Assembly: GCA_020053105.1 (NCBI GenBank)
Contig: JAGVNU010000070.1
Span: 1 to 64,000, forward strand
DNA length: 64,000 bases
Direction of reading: 5' to 3'
Source: Thermodesulfovibrionia bacterium
GTDB lineage: Bacteria > Nitrospirota > Thermodesulfovibrionia > UBA6902
The notes under the pieces are model-generated. The model was given only the letters and a program-made list of their open reading frames with translations. It did not search any database and was not told where the DNA came from. Shown here piece by piece: positions 32,556 through 56,581 of this stretch. The position numbers and the translations under genes were made by a program. The first letter of the stretch is position 1; each line of letters opens with the position of its first letter.

Positions 32556-33653
32556 ATGAAATACCAGTCTGACGATCCGTTGCATGATGTGCCTGACTTT
32601 ATGGAGTCACTGGAGAAAAAAGGGATTTCCCGCAGAGACTTCATGAAATGGTGCACCGGTATGGCTGCCCTGCTGTCCTTACCAGCTTCGTTTATCCCCA
32701 AAATCGCCGAGGCCGTAATGGCCCAAAAACCGTATCTTGTATGGCTTGAGTACCAGGACTGCGCAGGTGACTCAGAGGCCCTTCTAAGGGCATCAAAACC
32801 AACTGTAGGACAGATAGTACTCGATATCTTCTCAGTCGATTATCATGAGACGATAATGGCGCCGGCAGGATTTCAGGCAGAGAAGTCTCTTATGGATGTT
32901 GTTAAAAACCACAAAGGACAATACTTCGTTGTGGTAGAGGGGGCGATACCTCTCAAGGACAATGGTGTTTACTGCTGTATAGGCGGCAGATCAGCTATTG
33001 ATATTGCACGCGAAGTCTGCGGCAATGCACTGGCAACTATTGCCGTCGGCACATGCGCGACACACGGAGGAATTCCTGCAGCACTTCCAAATCCAACCGG
33101 AGCGGTAGGTGTTAAAGAAGCTATCCCAAACGCTACAGTAATAAATCTGCCGGGGTGTCCTCTGAATGTAGAAAACCTTACCGCCTGTATAGTCCATTAT
33201 CTGACTTTGGGCAGGCTTCCCCAGACCGATAAACTCGGCCGTCCGCTCTTTGCGTATGGCAAGAGAATACACGACAACTGTGAAAGAAGGGGACATTTTG
33301 ACGCCGGGCAGTTTGTCAGAAAGTGGGGCGACGAAGCACACAGGCAGGGATGGTGCCTTTATGAAATGGGCTGCAAGGGCCCGGAGACCTTTCACAACTG
33401 TCCAACTGTTAAATATAACGAAGGCACAAGCTGGCCTGTCCAGGCAGGGCATGGATGCATCGGATGTTCCGAGCCGCATTTCTGGGACACGATGACACCG
33501 TTCTACAGAAGGCTGCCGAATGTGCCTGGTTTCGGTGTAGAAAAGACGGCTGACAAGGTCGGAGTCGGCCTCGCCGCAGCAACAGCCGCAGGTCTTGCTG
33601 TTCACGCAGTCGGCAGGGCAATGTCATCCAAGAAAGAAGATAAAGAAAAATAA
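32556..33653 (+). CDS. [NiFe] hydrogenase small subunit (Tat-exported, CxGD proximal site)
   Basis: The 365-residue protein is the iron-sulfur electron-transfer subunit of an uptake hydrogenase. The twin-arginine signal is ISRRDFMKWCTG (residues 24-35), so the folded dimer is exported. Cluster ligands are visible: GTCATHGG and LPGCP for the proximal cluster, HDNC and WCLYEMGCKGP for the distal cluster, FHNCP and GHGCIGC for the medial cluster. Unusually, the first proximal motif reads D-C69-A-G-D72, with Asp where CTGC has its second Cys. A C-terminal hydrophobic helix anchors it. AGAAAGGGGGAGG precedes the ATG. TTGACA at 32447 may belong to the operon promoter, but no well-spaced -10 was found. 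Confidence 0.93.
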   Translation: MKYQSDDPLHDVPDFMESLEKKGISRRDFMKWCTGMAALLSLPASFIPKIAEAVMAQKPYLVWLEYQDCAGDSEALLRASKPTVGQIVLDIFSVDYHETIMAPAGFQAEKSLMDVVKNHKGQYFVVVEGAIPLKDNGVYCCIGGRSAIDIAREVCGNALATIAVGTCATHGGIPAALPNPTGAVGVKEAIPNATVINLPGCPLNVENLTACIVHYLTLGRLPQTDKLGRPLFAYGKRIHDNCERRGHFDAGQFVRKWGDEAHRQGWCLYEMGCKGPETFHNCPTVKYNEGTSWPVQAGHGCIGCSEPHFWDTMTPFYRRLPNVPGFGVEKTADKVGVGLAAATAAGLAVHAVGRAMSSKKEDKEK

Positions 33654-33675: not shown

Positions 33676-35388
33676 TTGGCAAAGAAATTAGTAATTGACC
33701 CGATCACACGGATTGAAGGACATCTCAGGATTGAGGCCCAGGTTGAAAACGGCAAGGTCGTTGACGCATGGAGTTCCAGCACCATGTTCAGGGGGATCGA
33801 GCTCATCTTGAAAGGCAGAGACCCAAGAGACGCGTGGGCGTTTACGCAGCGCATATGAGGCGTCTGAACAACGGTGCACGCAACCGCCTCGGTGAGAGCG
33901 GTCGAAGACGCTTTAGGCATTACAATTCCTGATAACGCGAGGATAATCAGAAACCTTATTTCAGGGATACAGTACGTACAGGACCATGTGATCCACTTCT
34001 ATCATCTCCACGCCCTTGACTGGGTGGATATAGTAAGCGCGTTAAGCGCGGACCCTGCCAAGACCTCTGCGCTGGCCCAGTCCATATCGGACTGGCCCAA
34101 ATCAAGCGCTGATTATTTCAAGGGCATAAAAGACAAGCTCAAGGAATTTGTGGACAGGGGCCAGCTCGGTCCTTTCGCTAACGCATACTGGGGACACCCG
34201 GCATACAAACTGCCTCCGGAAGCCAATCTCATGGCTGTGGCCCATTATCTCGAGGCGCTTGAATGGCAGAGGGAAGTCATCAAGATTCAGGCCCTGCTGG
34301 GCGCAAAGAACCCCCATGCCCAGACGTATATAGTAGGCGGAATGTCTATTCCTGTTGATCCTGAAAGCCAGAACGCCCTTAACGCCGGAAGCATTGCCTT
34401 TATGCAGGGACTTGCGAAAACTGCCCTGGACTTTGTTGAACACGTTTACATCCCGGACATAATCGCCGTTGCCCCGTTCTATCTGGACTGGGCAGGTCAC
34501 GGAGCAGGGGTAGGGAATTTCCTCTGTTACGGAGAGTTCCCGAACGACACAGTCAGCAACACGGAAAACCTGTGGCTGCCGCGAGGGATCATTCTCAATA
34601 AGGACCTGTCAACAGTACATAAGGTGGACCATCAAAAGGTCACTGAATACGTAACCCGCTCCTGGTATAACTATTCCGGCGGAGACGACAAAGCCATGCA
34701 CCCATGGGACGGCGAGACCAACTACAAGTATACCGGCCCGCAGCCTCCGTATGAGTATCTGAATACAGATGAAAAGTATTCATGGCTTAAGGCCCCCCGT
34801 TACGACGACAAGGCAATGGAAGTCGGACCTCTTGCAAGGATGCTCGTTGCCTACGCCTCCGGGCATAAAGAAGTCCAGGACACGGTAAATTATGTCCTTA
34901 AGACACTCGGAGTCGGACCAGCGGTCCTCTTCTCAACCCTGGGAAGGATAGCGGCAAGGGGCGTCGAGACACTGATCACCGCCAAGAAGCTCCCCGAATG
35001 GATCAACCAGCTTGCCACAAATATGAAAAACGGGGACATGAAGATCCACAGCGGTGAGAAATGGGACCCGTCCACCTGGCCTGCAGAAGCAAAGGGCTAT
35101 GGTCTTCACGAGGCGCCAAGGGGCTCGCTAGGCCACTGGGTAAAGATCAAGGACCAGAAGATAGAGAATTTCCAGATCGTAGTCCCCGGCACTTGGAACG
35201 GTTCTCCGAGAGACGCCAAAAACCAGAGAGGCCCTTACGAGGAAGCCCTGATCGGCACCCCGGTCGCTAATCCGGAGCAGCCGGTTGAGATACTCAGGAC
35301 CATACACTCATTCGACCCCTGCATGGCGTGTGCCGTTCATGTGGTTGATACCGATGGAAATGAGCTTATCCGGATAAAGGTGAAATAA
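33676..35388 (+). CDS. [NiFe] hydrogenase large subunit with two in-frame TGA (predicted selenocysteine) codons
   Basis: This is the catalytic subunit that splits H2. The start is TTG at 33676 ([19 protein letters not shown]), eight bases after AGGAGG. Read through two TGAs it has 570 residues, the length of E. coli HybC. The L1 motif that should read RICGVCT reads RI-TGA-GV-TGA-T (residues 61 and 64); the frame is otherwise intact. The L2 motif DPCMACAVH (Cys549, Cys552, His555) is normal, followed by a 15-residue tail for the maturation protease. A SECIS-like hairpin follows the TGAs. Selenocysteine at both L1 ligands is inference; alternatives are a UGA-reading tRNA-Cys or a double nonsense pseudogene. 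The operon order is small-large-cytochrome b. Confidence 0.9.
33856..33867 (+). other. Two TGA codons at the L1 nickel-ligand cysteine positions (predicted UxxU)
   Basis: TGA at 33856-33858 and TGA at 33865-33867 are in the same frame and replace codons 61 and 64. Flanking codons give TQRI-(TGA)-GV-(TGA)-TTVHA, so both fall precisely on the cysteines of the invariant CxxC. TGA is a normal stop elsewhere in the window (for example at the end of coaD and hypA), so the genetic code is not globally changed. Confidence 0.85.
33883..33902 (+). promoter_or_regulatory. Candidate bacterial SECIS hairpin
   Basis: ACCGC-CTC (33883-33890) pairs with GAG-(A)-GCGGT (33894-33902), an 8-bp stem with one bulged A. 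The apical loop is GGT. The loop begins 23 nt after the second TGA and 32 nt after the first. This agrees with the bacterial SECIS rule of a stem-loop with a G in the first loop positions about 16-37 nt from the UGA. One hairpin could therefore serve both codons. Confidence 0.65.
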
Positions 35389-35402: not shown

Positions 35403-36065
35403 ATGAAGAACGAGAGAGAGAAAGTCTATGTATGGGAATTCCCGGTCAGGTTTACCCACTGGATAAATGCGCTCTGTCTGCTTGCCCTTTCGGTCACCGG
35501 CTTCTACATCGCCAGTCCGTTTATCTATGCCCAGGATTCAACTGAGTACATAATGGGATGGATGAGGTTTGTTCATTTTGCCTCAGCATACGCTTTCGTG
35601 ATGAGCATCATCATCAGGCTTTACTGGTCGCGGGCAGGAAACAAGTATGCCTGTCTCTGCAGCTGGATTCCCTTGTCCGCTAAAAGAATCGGCGAATTGA
35701 TAGAAGACCTCAAGGTCTACCTGCTGATAAGCAAACGGTCCAAAAGTCATGTCGGACACTCAGCCTTTGGGGGCCTGACATACCTGCTGCTGCTGGGGGT
35801 ATTTATCTTCGAGATAATTTCCGGATTTGCCCTGTACTCTGTAAACCATTCAGGCGCTGTCTGGACACTTCTCGGCGGATGGCTCACCGGCATAATGTAT
35901 CTTCAGACCATAAGGCTGTGGCACCACCTGTTCATGTACGTCATAATAGCGTTCACACTGGTGCATGTCTATATTTCCCAGTTTTCCGAGTCCCTTGAGG
36001 AGACCGGCCTCATTACGTCGATCTTCACCGGGTATAAGTTCATCCCCGAAAAAGATTTGGAATAA
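35403..36065 (+). CDS. Ni/Fe-hydrogenase b-type cytochrome subunit
   Basis: The 220-residue membrane protein has four to five spans and histidines in the positions of HyaC/HupC-type cytochromes: FTHWINALCLLALSVTG, MRFVHFASAYAF, and LWHHLFMYVIIAFTLVHVY for the two heme b groups. It takes electrons from the small subunit into the quinone pool. It begins 15 bases after the large subunit behind an AAGGGAGGG site, and the operon terminator follows. Confidence 0.93.
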   Translation: MKNEREKVYVWEFPVRFTHWINALCLLALSVTGFYIASPFIYAQDSTEYIMGWMRFVHFASAYAFVMSIIIRLYWSRAGNKYACLCSWIPLSAKRIGELIEDLKVYLLISKRSKSHVGHSAFGGLTYLLLLGVFIFEIISGFALYSVNHSGAVWTLLGGWLTGIMYLQTIRLWHHLFMYVIIAFTLVHVYISQFSESLEETGLITSIFTGYKFIPEKDLE

Positions 36066-38812: not shown

Positions 38813-39304
38813 TTGAACATCGCAGTCTTTGGAATAGGCAATATCCTTCTGTCCGACGACGGGGTCGGTGTTCACGCCGTGAATAAACTGAGCAGTGAAT
38901 ATCAGTTTCCCGGTAATGTTGAGATAATCGACGGCGGCACCAAGGGACTTGATCTCCTGCCGCTTTTTGAAAACAGGGACAGGGTGCTGATAATTGACGC
39001 GGCAAATTTCAAAAAAGGACCCGGCACAATAGACATGGTAGAAGGCGACAGTATCCCCTCCTTCCTGAGCTCCAAACTTTCCGTGCATCAGATCGGACTT
39101 CCGGATATGCTCTTTGCGGCCAAACTGATGGATATCATGCCTGCCGGCATATGTCTCATCGGTATCCAGCCTTTATCAATGGAGACCTCCGCAGAGATGT
39201 CTGGTCTCATCAGCGGCAAAATGGGGGCGCTGATCAGCAGGGTGCTTGAGAAATTAAAAGAATGGGGAGTGGAGGCAGTCCCGGTCAGGGCGTCTATACT
39301 TTAA
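38813..39304 (+). CDS. [NiFe]-hydrogenase maturation protease
   Basis: The 163-residue endopeptidase removes the C-terminal tail of the large subunit after nickel insertion. It opens VFGIGNILLSDDGVGVHAV, containing the nickel-probing Asp/Glu region, and has EIIDGGTKGLDLLPLF, LIIDAANFKKGPG and SVHQIGLPDML with the conserved His. The start is TTG at 38813 behind AGGAGG; an ATG is absent. A TATAAT lies at 38781. The 15-residue tail of the nearby large subunit (after His555) is its likely substrate. Confidence 0.93.
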   Translation: MNIAVFGIGNILLSDDGVGVHAVNKLSSEYQFPGNVEIIDGGTKGLDLLPLFENRDRVLIIDAANFKKGPGTIDMVEGDSIPSFLSSKLSVHQIGLPDMLFAAKLMDIMPAGICLIGIQPLSMETSAEMSGLISGKMGALISRVLEKLKEWGVEAVPVRASIL

Positions 39305-55858: not shown

Positions 55859-56581
55859 ATGTGTGATGTGTGCGGATGTCATGATCATAGCCATAATCAT
55901 GGCCATGAAACCAGAACTGTAGATGTTAACCAGAGTCTGCTGAAGGCCAATGAAGATGCTGCCGTCAGTAACAGGAAGCATTTTGATGAATTGGGAATAC
56001 TTGCGATAAATCTTATCAGCTCTCCCGGATCAGGGAAAACCACGCTGCTGGAAAAAACTATCGAGGCCCTCAAAGATGAAATAAGCATCGGTGTGCTTGA
56101 GGGTGACATAGAGACCGACCTGGACGCGGAAAGGATCAGGGCCAAGGGCGTTCCTGCGGTACAGCTTACAACAGGGGGCGCGTGTCACCTTGACTCCTCC
56201 CAGATCCACAGAGGCTTTCACTCGCTGAAACATCAGTTAAACGGGAAGAAACTCGATGTCCTTTTTATCGAAAACGTGGGCAACCTGGTATGTCCTTCCT
56301 TCTTTGACCTCGGAGAGCATATACGTGTCGTTCTCATCTCTGTTCCTGAAGGTCATGACAAGCCCGTGAAATATCCGAAGGCCATAAGGACCTCTCAATT
56401 GCTTATCATTTCAAAGTCCGACCTTGTGCAGCACTTTGACTTCAATCTCGATAAAATTAAAAAAGACGCATTGTCGCTGAATCCTTCTCTGAATATTATC
56501 GTGACCTCGGCAAAGACAGGCGAGGGGATGGAAGAGTGGATTAAATTTTTAACAAATCTGAAAAAAAACAGAAAGAATTAA
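55859..56581 (+). CDS. hypB: Hydrogenase nickel-incorporation GTPase HypB
   Basis: The 240-residue GTPase delivers nickel to the large subunit. The N-terminus has the CxxCGC nickel site (MCDVCGCHD) and a short histidine-rich stretch (HDHSHNHGHE). The GTPase motifs are SSPGSGKTTLLEKTIE (G1), EGDIETDLDAERI, NVGNLVCPSFFDLGE and ISKSDL (G4). A TAGGAG site precedes the ATG. It completes hypCAB. Confidence 0.96.
   Translation: MCDVCGCHDHSHNHGHETRTVDVNQSLLKANEDAAVSNRKHFDELGILAINLISSPGSGKTTLLEKTIEALKDEISIGVLEGDIETDLDAERIRAKGVPAVQLTTGGACHLDSSQIHRGFHSLKHQLNGKKLDVLFIENVGNLVCPSFFDLGEHIRVVLISVPEGHDKPVKYPKAIRTSQLLIISKSDLVQHFDFNLDKIKKDALSLNPSLNIIVTSAKTGEGMEEWIKFLTNLKKNRKN

Follow-up and report, generated by a model that had tools for sequence, protein, structure and literature searches.

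Aspartate in place of a proximal-cluster cysteine in a group 1 [NiFe]-hydrogenase family with predicted selenocysteines in L1

The window analysed here, a stretch of 64,000 nucleotides from a Thermodesulfovibrionia bacterium, encodes a [NiFe]-hydrogenase small subunit with the motif CAGD at the proximal cluster, where aspartate genuinely replaces the fourth cysteine that normally binds the [4Fe-4S] centre. The large subunit next to it has two predicted selenocysteines in its first metal-binding motif (L1), a state written here as UxxU. Is the aspartate tied to the selenocysteines? Judged from the sequences compared, CxGD or CxGN is an inherited trait of one small-subunit lineage and no condition of UxxU, because both the pair counts and the trees, with a single change to Asp/Asn against many changes of L1, speak for this. 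We consider it likely that the enzyme represents an undescribed and widespread kind of group 1 hydrogenase, found in both Nitrospirota and Chloroflexota, which has selenocysteine in L1 (UxxU, terminal and bridging, or CxxU, bridging only) and in a large Nitrospirota-centred branch an Asp/Asn-ligated proximal cluster too. If this is true, the Ni-Fe site of that branch is bound by two selenium ligands and wired to a non-standard first cluster. An Asp-for-Cys swap on its own is a known kind of ligand change; what is new here is the setting of the Asp ligand in a family with selenocysteine in L1, and the separability of both traits.

The small subunit and its proximal ligands

The small subunit gene (32556..33653, + strand) encodes a Tat-exported protein of 365 amino acids with a C-terminal hydrophobic helix. 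It scores 458 bits with TIGR00391, whose cut-off is 179.5, PF14720 and PF01058 match as well, and the phmmer comparison with the enzyme of D. vulgaris Miyazaki F gives E = 6.5e-98 (331 bits). The twin-arginine signal region (SRRDFMKW...VMA, approximately 32628..32717, +) aligns to the Tat region of 1h2a, and the hydrophobic helix spans residues 328-364 in an AlphaFold model whose mean pLDDT of 62.7 is moderate only. The large subunit gene lies directly 3' of the small subunit gene and is followed by that of a Ni/Fe-hydrogenase b-type cytochrome subunit (35403..36065, +; TIGR02125, 153.8 bits, cut-off 121.5). A HyaD/HybD-type maturation endopeptidase is encoded at 38813..39304 (+), where TIGR00140 scores 150.4 bits, just below its cut-off of 151.8, and TIGR00072 is above its cut-off; the nickel-insertion GTPase HypB (55859..56581, +; TIGR00073, 271.8 bits) lies far off within the window. 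With the ligands of a medial [3Fe-4S] and a distal His/3Cys cluster, the Tat signal and the adjacent cytochrome b all found, the enzyme is a Tat-exported, membrane-anchored, cytochrome-b-linked uptake hydrogenase of group 1.

Proximal ligands 1 and 2 are contained in C69-A70-G71-D72 (32760..32771, +; TGC GCA GGT GAC, TGCGCAGGTGAC), the second being Asp instead of Cys. In the phmmer alignments with the D. vulgaris Miyazaki F enzyme and the membrane-bound hydrogenase (MBH) of C. necator, C69 and D72 face both cysteines of CTGC. Ligand 3 is Cys167 in GTC (33054..33056, +) and ligand 4 is Cys201 in LPGC (33156..33158, +), both placed by alignment. The initial annotation had reported CAGD in place of CTGC with the remaining proximal cysteines present, and the sequence and its alignment to solved enzymes bear this out. 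Residue 72 is Asp in 56 and Asn in 22 of 78 distinct small subunits among the matches listed, which come from Nitrospirota, Chloroflexota and a small number of further groups, so CAGD is neither a sequencing error nor a chance event. The cysteines that are invariant in the mature part of these 78 proteins are 69, 167 and 201 together with six of the medial and distal clusters; H239 and P294 are likewise invariant in alignment A1.

Such ligand changes have been met before. Asp or Asn at this proximal ligand, or three proximal cysteines only, is given for groups 1b, 1f, 1g, 1h and 2a (PMC5364354; PMC4070099 Table 1), with natural Asn/Asp at the proximal site in groups 1f, 2a and 1h (PMC5364354). 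Asp/Asn at proximal position 2 of database sequences was already remarked in 2014, and the engineered C81D and C81N hydrogenases of Alteromonas stay active (PMC4070099).

Two further variants of the cluster ligands were seen. A second set of Nitrospirota small subunits (L091, L092, L094-L098, L102) carries Asp at ligand 1 of the proximal cluster (DxGC), and the L1 of the large subunit is all-Cys. In several CxGD small subunits (L016, L028, L029, L040, L042, L044, L059, L066) the medial motif CIGCSEPHFW is replaced by CIACA..NNW/HNW, which points to a changed environment of a predicted medial cluster.

Predicted selenocysteines in the large subunit

The large subunit (33676..35388, +) is a full-length group 1 type protein of 570 amino acids, read from a TTG start at 33676 through two in-frame TGA codons of L1, TGA 1 at 33856..33858 (+) and TGA 2 at 33865..33867 (+), both predicted to encode selenocysteine (Sec). 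From established hydrogenase structures we take TGA 1 to be at the terminal Ni-ligand position and TGA 2 at the Ni-Fe bridging position. Read through, L1 becomes RI-U-GV-U-TTVH, and L2 is all-Cys (DPCMAC). The reading by translation table 11 begins only at 33874 and drops L1. Large subunits with UGA codons in L1 are thus likely to be mis-annotated, since a standard reading begins past both UGA codons and so misses half of the ligands of the active site.

Are the two codons really read as selenocysteine? They are found at the same sites in dozens of genomes, including nearly all close homologues of the 396-genome search described below, and other homologues have Cys there. At 15 nt past TGA 2 there is a SECIS-like hairpin with the loop GGUGA (33883..33902, +), recognised by covariation and codon conservation. 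With the pairing scored in both of two registers, the Sec loci of the window clade have on average 5.5-6.0 of 6 Watson-Crick pairs, against 3.1 in the CxxC loci. Compensatory changes occur at three of the hairpin pairs, and the hairpin codons show some of the lowest variation within the gene, only 4 of 552 six-codon windows being equally low. Rfam at the gathering threshold gave no match within the window. In the host genome SelB and tRNA-Sec are found over their cut-offs, together with a SelA-like ORF recognised by reading of the sequence. No SelD over the cut-off was found in this 83% complete assembly; among 21 family genomes, 17 have one, and 16 of those 17 have an in-frame TGA in it. A SelD candidate at C33 was rejected, its sequence resembling a ThiL-type kinase and not SelD, and one family genome (G158) carries two SelD copies. 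A reassigned stop codon can be dismissed, given that 13 of the 36 window genes checked end in TGA and that both TGA codons stand exactly at conserved Cys positions. Thus, from the covarying hairpin, the SelA-like ORF, SelB and tRNA-Sec, the predicted double-Sec L1 looks real.

No description of Sec in the L1 of a hydrogenase was found in the open-access literature, subscription papers being outside that search. Sec engineered into E. coli Hyd-1 at each of the four Ni-coordinating positions is cited in PMC11212049. The predicted double Sec of L1 is the more novel feature of the enzyme and far rarer than CAGD.

Sec in L1 also occurs outside the window clade. A separate Hyb-like (Hyd-2-like) clade (L082, L083, L122, L167, L173 and others), with members in Nitrospirota, Desulfobacterota, Spirochaetota and Rokubacteria, has a single Sec in L1, at the second position (CGVU), and its small subunits have the ordinary CTGC. 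The SECIS pairing of the window clade reaches 2.6 of 6 pairs in this CxxU clade, where the downstream hairpin is a different one. Three genomes (G292, G184 and G109, with L062, L068 and L101) have a second, all-Cys large subunit beside which no small subunit was detected, the Sec copy being elsewhere.

Pairing of the proximal ligand with the L1 state

The initial annotation had proposed a special pairing of UxxU with CxGD, to be checked by asking whether all UxxU homologues have a CxGD small subunit. To this end, homologues were sought in 396 genomes (phylum level), of which 154 had a match at E 1e-60 or better. A scan of contigs with the motif W....R[I/F/L]xGVUT extended the set, among the matches listed, to loci of Chloroflexota, Desulfobacterota, Spirochaetota and other groups. 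Note that the motif was built on GVUT, so that relatives with UxxC or an all-Cys L1 are represented too sparsely and the pair counts are not frequencies. After removal of duplicates there were at least 131 complete pairs of large and small subunits.

Among the matches listed, the 79 distinct UxxU enzymes have a CxGD partner in 45 cases, CxGN in 22 and CxGC in 12, and all 12 enzymes with UxxU and CxGC are from Chloroflexota. UxxU therefore does not always come with CxGD. Nor is CxGD confined to UxxU: the CxxU enzymes among the matches listed pair with CxGC (27), CxGD (7) and CxAD (1), and the CxxC enzymes with CxGD (3), CxGC (3), CxCC (3) and DxGC (8). Of the nine possible combinations of L1 (CxxC, CxxU, UxxU) with Cys, Asp or Asn at the proximal site, at least seven were found. 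This natural series lets the influence of the first electron-transfer cluster be told apart from that of selenium at the Ni-Fe site.

The trees agree with the counts. The large-subunit tree requires at least 14 changes of the L1 state and at least 4 of the ligand state (Cys, D/N or DxGC); if C, D and N are treated as three separate ligand states, there are at least 12 changes, with repeated exchange between Asp and Asn. On the small-subunit tree the D/N proteins form one clade with a single change from C to D/N, while Sec at the first L1 position changed at least 9 times. Independence of CxGD from the L1 state on a tree had been named beforehand as the outcome that would speak against the pairing, and it is what the one D/N change beside many L1 changes amounts to. 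The pair counts and the trees together largely refute an obligate link between CxGD and UxxU. Tests on independent pairs found no association of the ligand with L1, at most 3-8 pairs being available, which gives them little power. Thermodesulfovibrio-like genomes (L073, L074) have CxGC together with CxxC; the larger tree places their small subunits outside the D/N clade and the smaller one inside it, and a joint reversal of ligand and L1 is possible there but not secure.

Proposed mechanism and alternative explanations

What might the aspartate do? It seems reasonably probable that Asp72 acts as a weak or exchangeable oxygen ligand that shifts the potential of the cluster in an H2-oxidising, quinone-linked enzyme, a proposal drawn from sequence. 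Electrons would pass from H2 to the Ni-Fe site, the proximal cluster, the medial [3Fe-4S] cluster, the distal [4Fe-4S] cluster, cytochrome b and finally quinone. For enzymes of the Hyd-1/MBH type, the route from H2 to quinone via clusters and cytochrome b is established. The proximal cluster would be of the [4Fe-4S] type, with three Cys ligands and an oxygen ligand that is weak or exchangeable, or it may lose the iron at that ligand and become [3Fe-4S]. With Asp72 on the iron that faces ligand 2 the cluster potential would be shifted, and this shift may bias the electron chain towards H2 oxidation. The sign of the shift is uncertain, because in other proteins an Asp ligand can bring the potential down or lead to a [3Fe-4S] cluster (PMC4070099). 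The selenocysteines of L1 would belong to the large subunit as a trait in its own right, with its own history, and not be a partner that the Asp ligand requires.

Might another cysteine have taken the place of the lost ligand, so that the cluster stays all-thiolate? The initial annotation had considered that an alignment could reveal one, and none was found in the 78 Asp/Asn-type small subunits among the matches listed. One candidate is Cys155 (33018..33020, +), probably no ligand, which is present in 73 of these 78 proteins and replaced by Ala in most CxGC types; its gain maps to the same branch of the small-subunit tree as D/N, with one later loss in one clade. Five D-type proteins lack it, and although three of them have a Cys at 151, one helix turn earlier, two (L148 and L071) have neither. 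Cys140 and Cys141 are both absent from two other D-type proteins (L142 and L153), and they are found in CxGC proteins too, thus are not specific to D/N. In the AlphaFold model residue 155 closes helix 147-156, before strand 160-164, and from the fold topology it is expected at the edge of the sheet remote from the loops that carry the cluster ligands; on this model we judge Cys155 to be an associated change rather than a ligand. Replacement of the lost ligand by Cys155 or Cys140/141 is thus very improbable. The proximal cluster would thus consist of three Cys and Asp/Asn with no substitute Cys, as no other Cys is invariant and Cys155 is judged a non-ligand. Then is the Asp or Asn bound at all? 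Asp and Asn exchange repeatedly, which a strictly required carboxylate would forbid, so neither thiolate nor carboxylate seems essential at ligand 2, and for this reason a cluster that is [3Fe-4S] or has an open site must be taken seriously as a rival. In the form of a constitutive [3Fe-4S] cluster with Asp/Asn unbound, it has a precedent in the hydrogenase Huc, whose proximal cluster is [3Fe-4S] (PMC10017518). However, Huc is distant (103 bits to the window small subunit), and group 1h is given as having an Asp-coordinated 4Fe4S cluster (PMC5364354); we regard this alternative as rather unlikely.

A further explanation is that the Asp ligand and UxxU form one co-adapted design for oxygen contact or an unusual potential. 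We find this improbable, and as an obligate link it is largely refuted. Nearly every UxxU of Nitrospirota adjoins a CxGD or CxGN small subunit, the Thermodesulfovibrio-like genomes have both all-Cys states together, and the host genome, which encodes a dissimilatory DsrA, also has two full-length COX1-family proteins. However, the 12 UxxU enzymes with CxGC and the 3 CxxC enzymes with CxGD, among the matches listed, break the combination in both directions, the low-powered independent pairs carry no signal for it, and Sulfurimonas (CAGN) and Sulfobacillus (CDGN) have Asn at the proximal site with an all-Cys L1. Moreover, three incomplete assemblies with UxxU and CxGD (G342, G250 and G352) yielded no full-length oxidase of the heme-copper or bd type. 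Oxygen contact is possible, yet it does not explain the Asp ligand, because a full-length oxidase was not detected in other members of the family that have this hydrogenase. We therefore keep to Asp/Asn as a lineage trait of the small subunit.

Comparison with known systems

The closest precedent for the motif itself is the actinobacterial-type hydrogenase (AH) of C. necator (group 1h, PDB 5AA5), which has C-x-G-D at the same alignment position (LGCDGDSVS). The initial annotation's comparison with group 1h holds for this site, but it does not extend to kinship. The small subunit of 5aa5 scores 91 bits with that of the window, against 331 bits for D. vulgaris, and group 1h has no Tat signal or membrane helix (PMC5364354), while the window small subunit has both. 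L1 and L2 of AH are RICGICGDNH and DPCLPCGVH, and those of the window enzyme TQRIUGVUTTVH and DPCMAC; the group 1h motifs TSRICGICGDNH for L1 and SFDPCLPCGVH for L2 (from PMC5364354) are absent from the window large subunit. On the trees of both subunits the AH reference is an extremely long and remote branch, and the window large subunit sits in a separate clade of Nitrospirota and Chloroflexota sequences. Membership of group 1h is thus ruled out by the L1/L2 motifs, the Tat signal and membrane helix, the score and the tree.

In groups 1b, 1f, 1g and 2a the fourth proximal Cys is changed to Asp/Asn as here, but Sec in L1 is not reported for them (PMC5364354; PMC4070099 Table 1). Huc has three [3Fe-4S] clusters and a raised potential (PMC10017518), and is related to the window enzyme only distantly. 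The membrane-bound uptake enzymes of groups 1c-1e (E. coli Hyd-1 and Hyd-2, C. necator MBH, A. vinosum 3MYR) share with it the Tat signal, the medial and distal ligands, the maturation protease and the overall fold (Z about 24); Hyd-1 and MBH also have a cytochrome b partner, and 3MYR is the closest to the window large subunit (735 bits). They differ in having CTGC or CTCC at the proximal cluster and CGVC in L1, where the window enzyme has CAGD and UGVU.

Finally, the classical [NiFeSe] enzyme HysAB has Sec as an active-site metal ligand, as is predicted for the window enzyme. However, the Sec of HysAB is the terminal ligand in L2 (UxxC), whereas the L2 of the window enzyme is CxxC and both predicted selenocysteines are in L1. 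Cys is found at both positions of L2 in the tabulated homologues, which sets them apart from classical [NiFeSe] enzymes with Sec first in L2.
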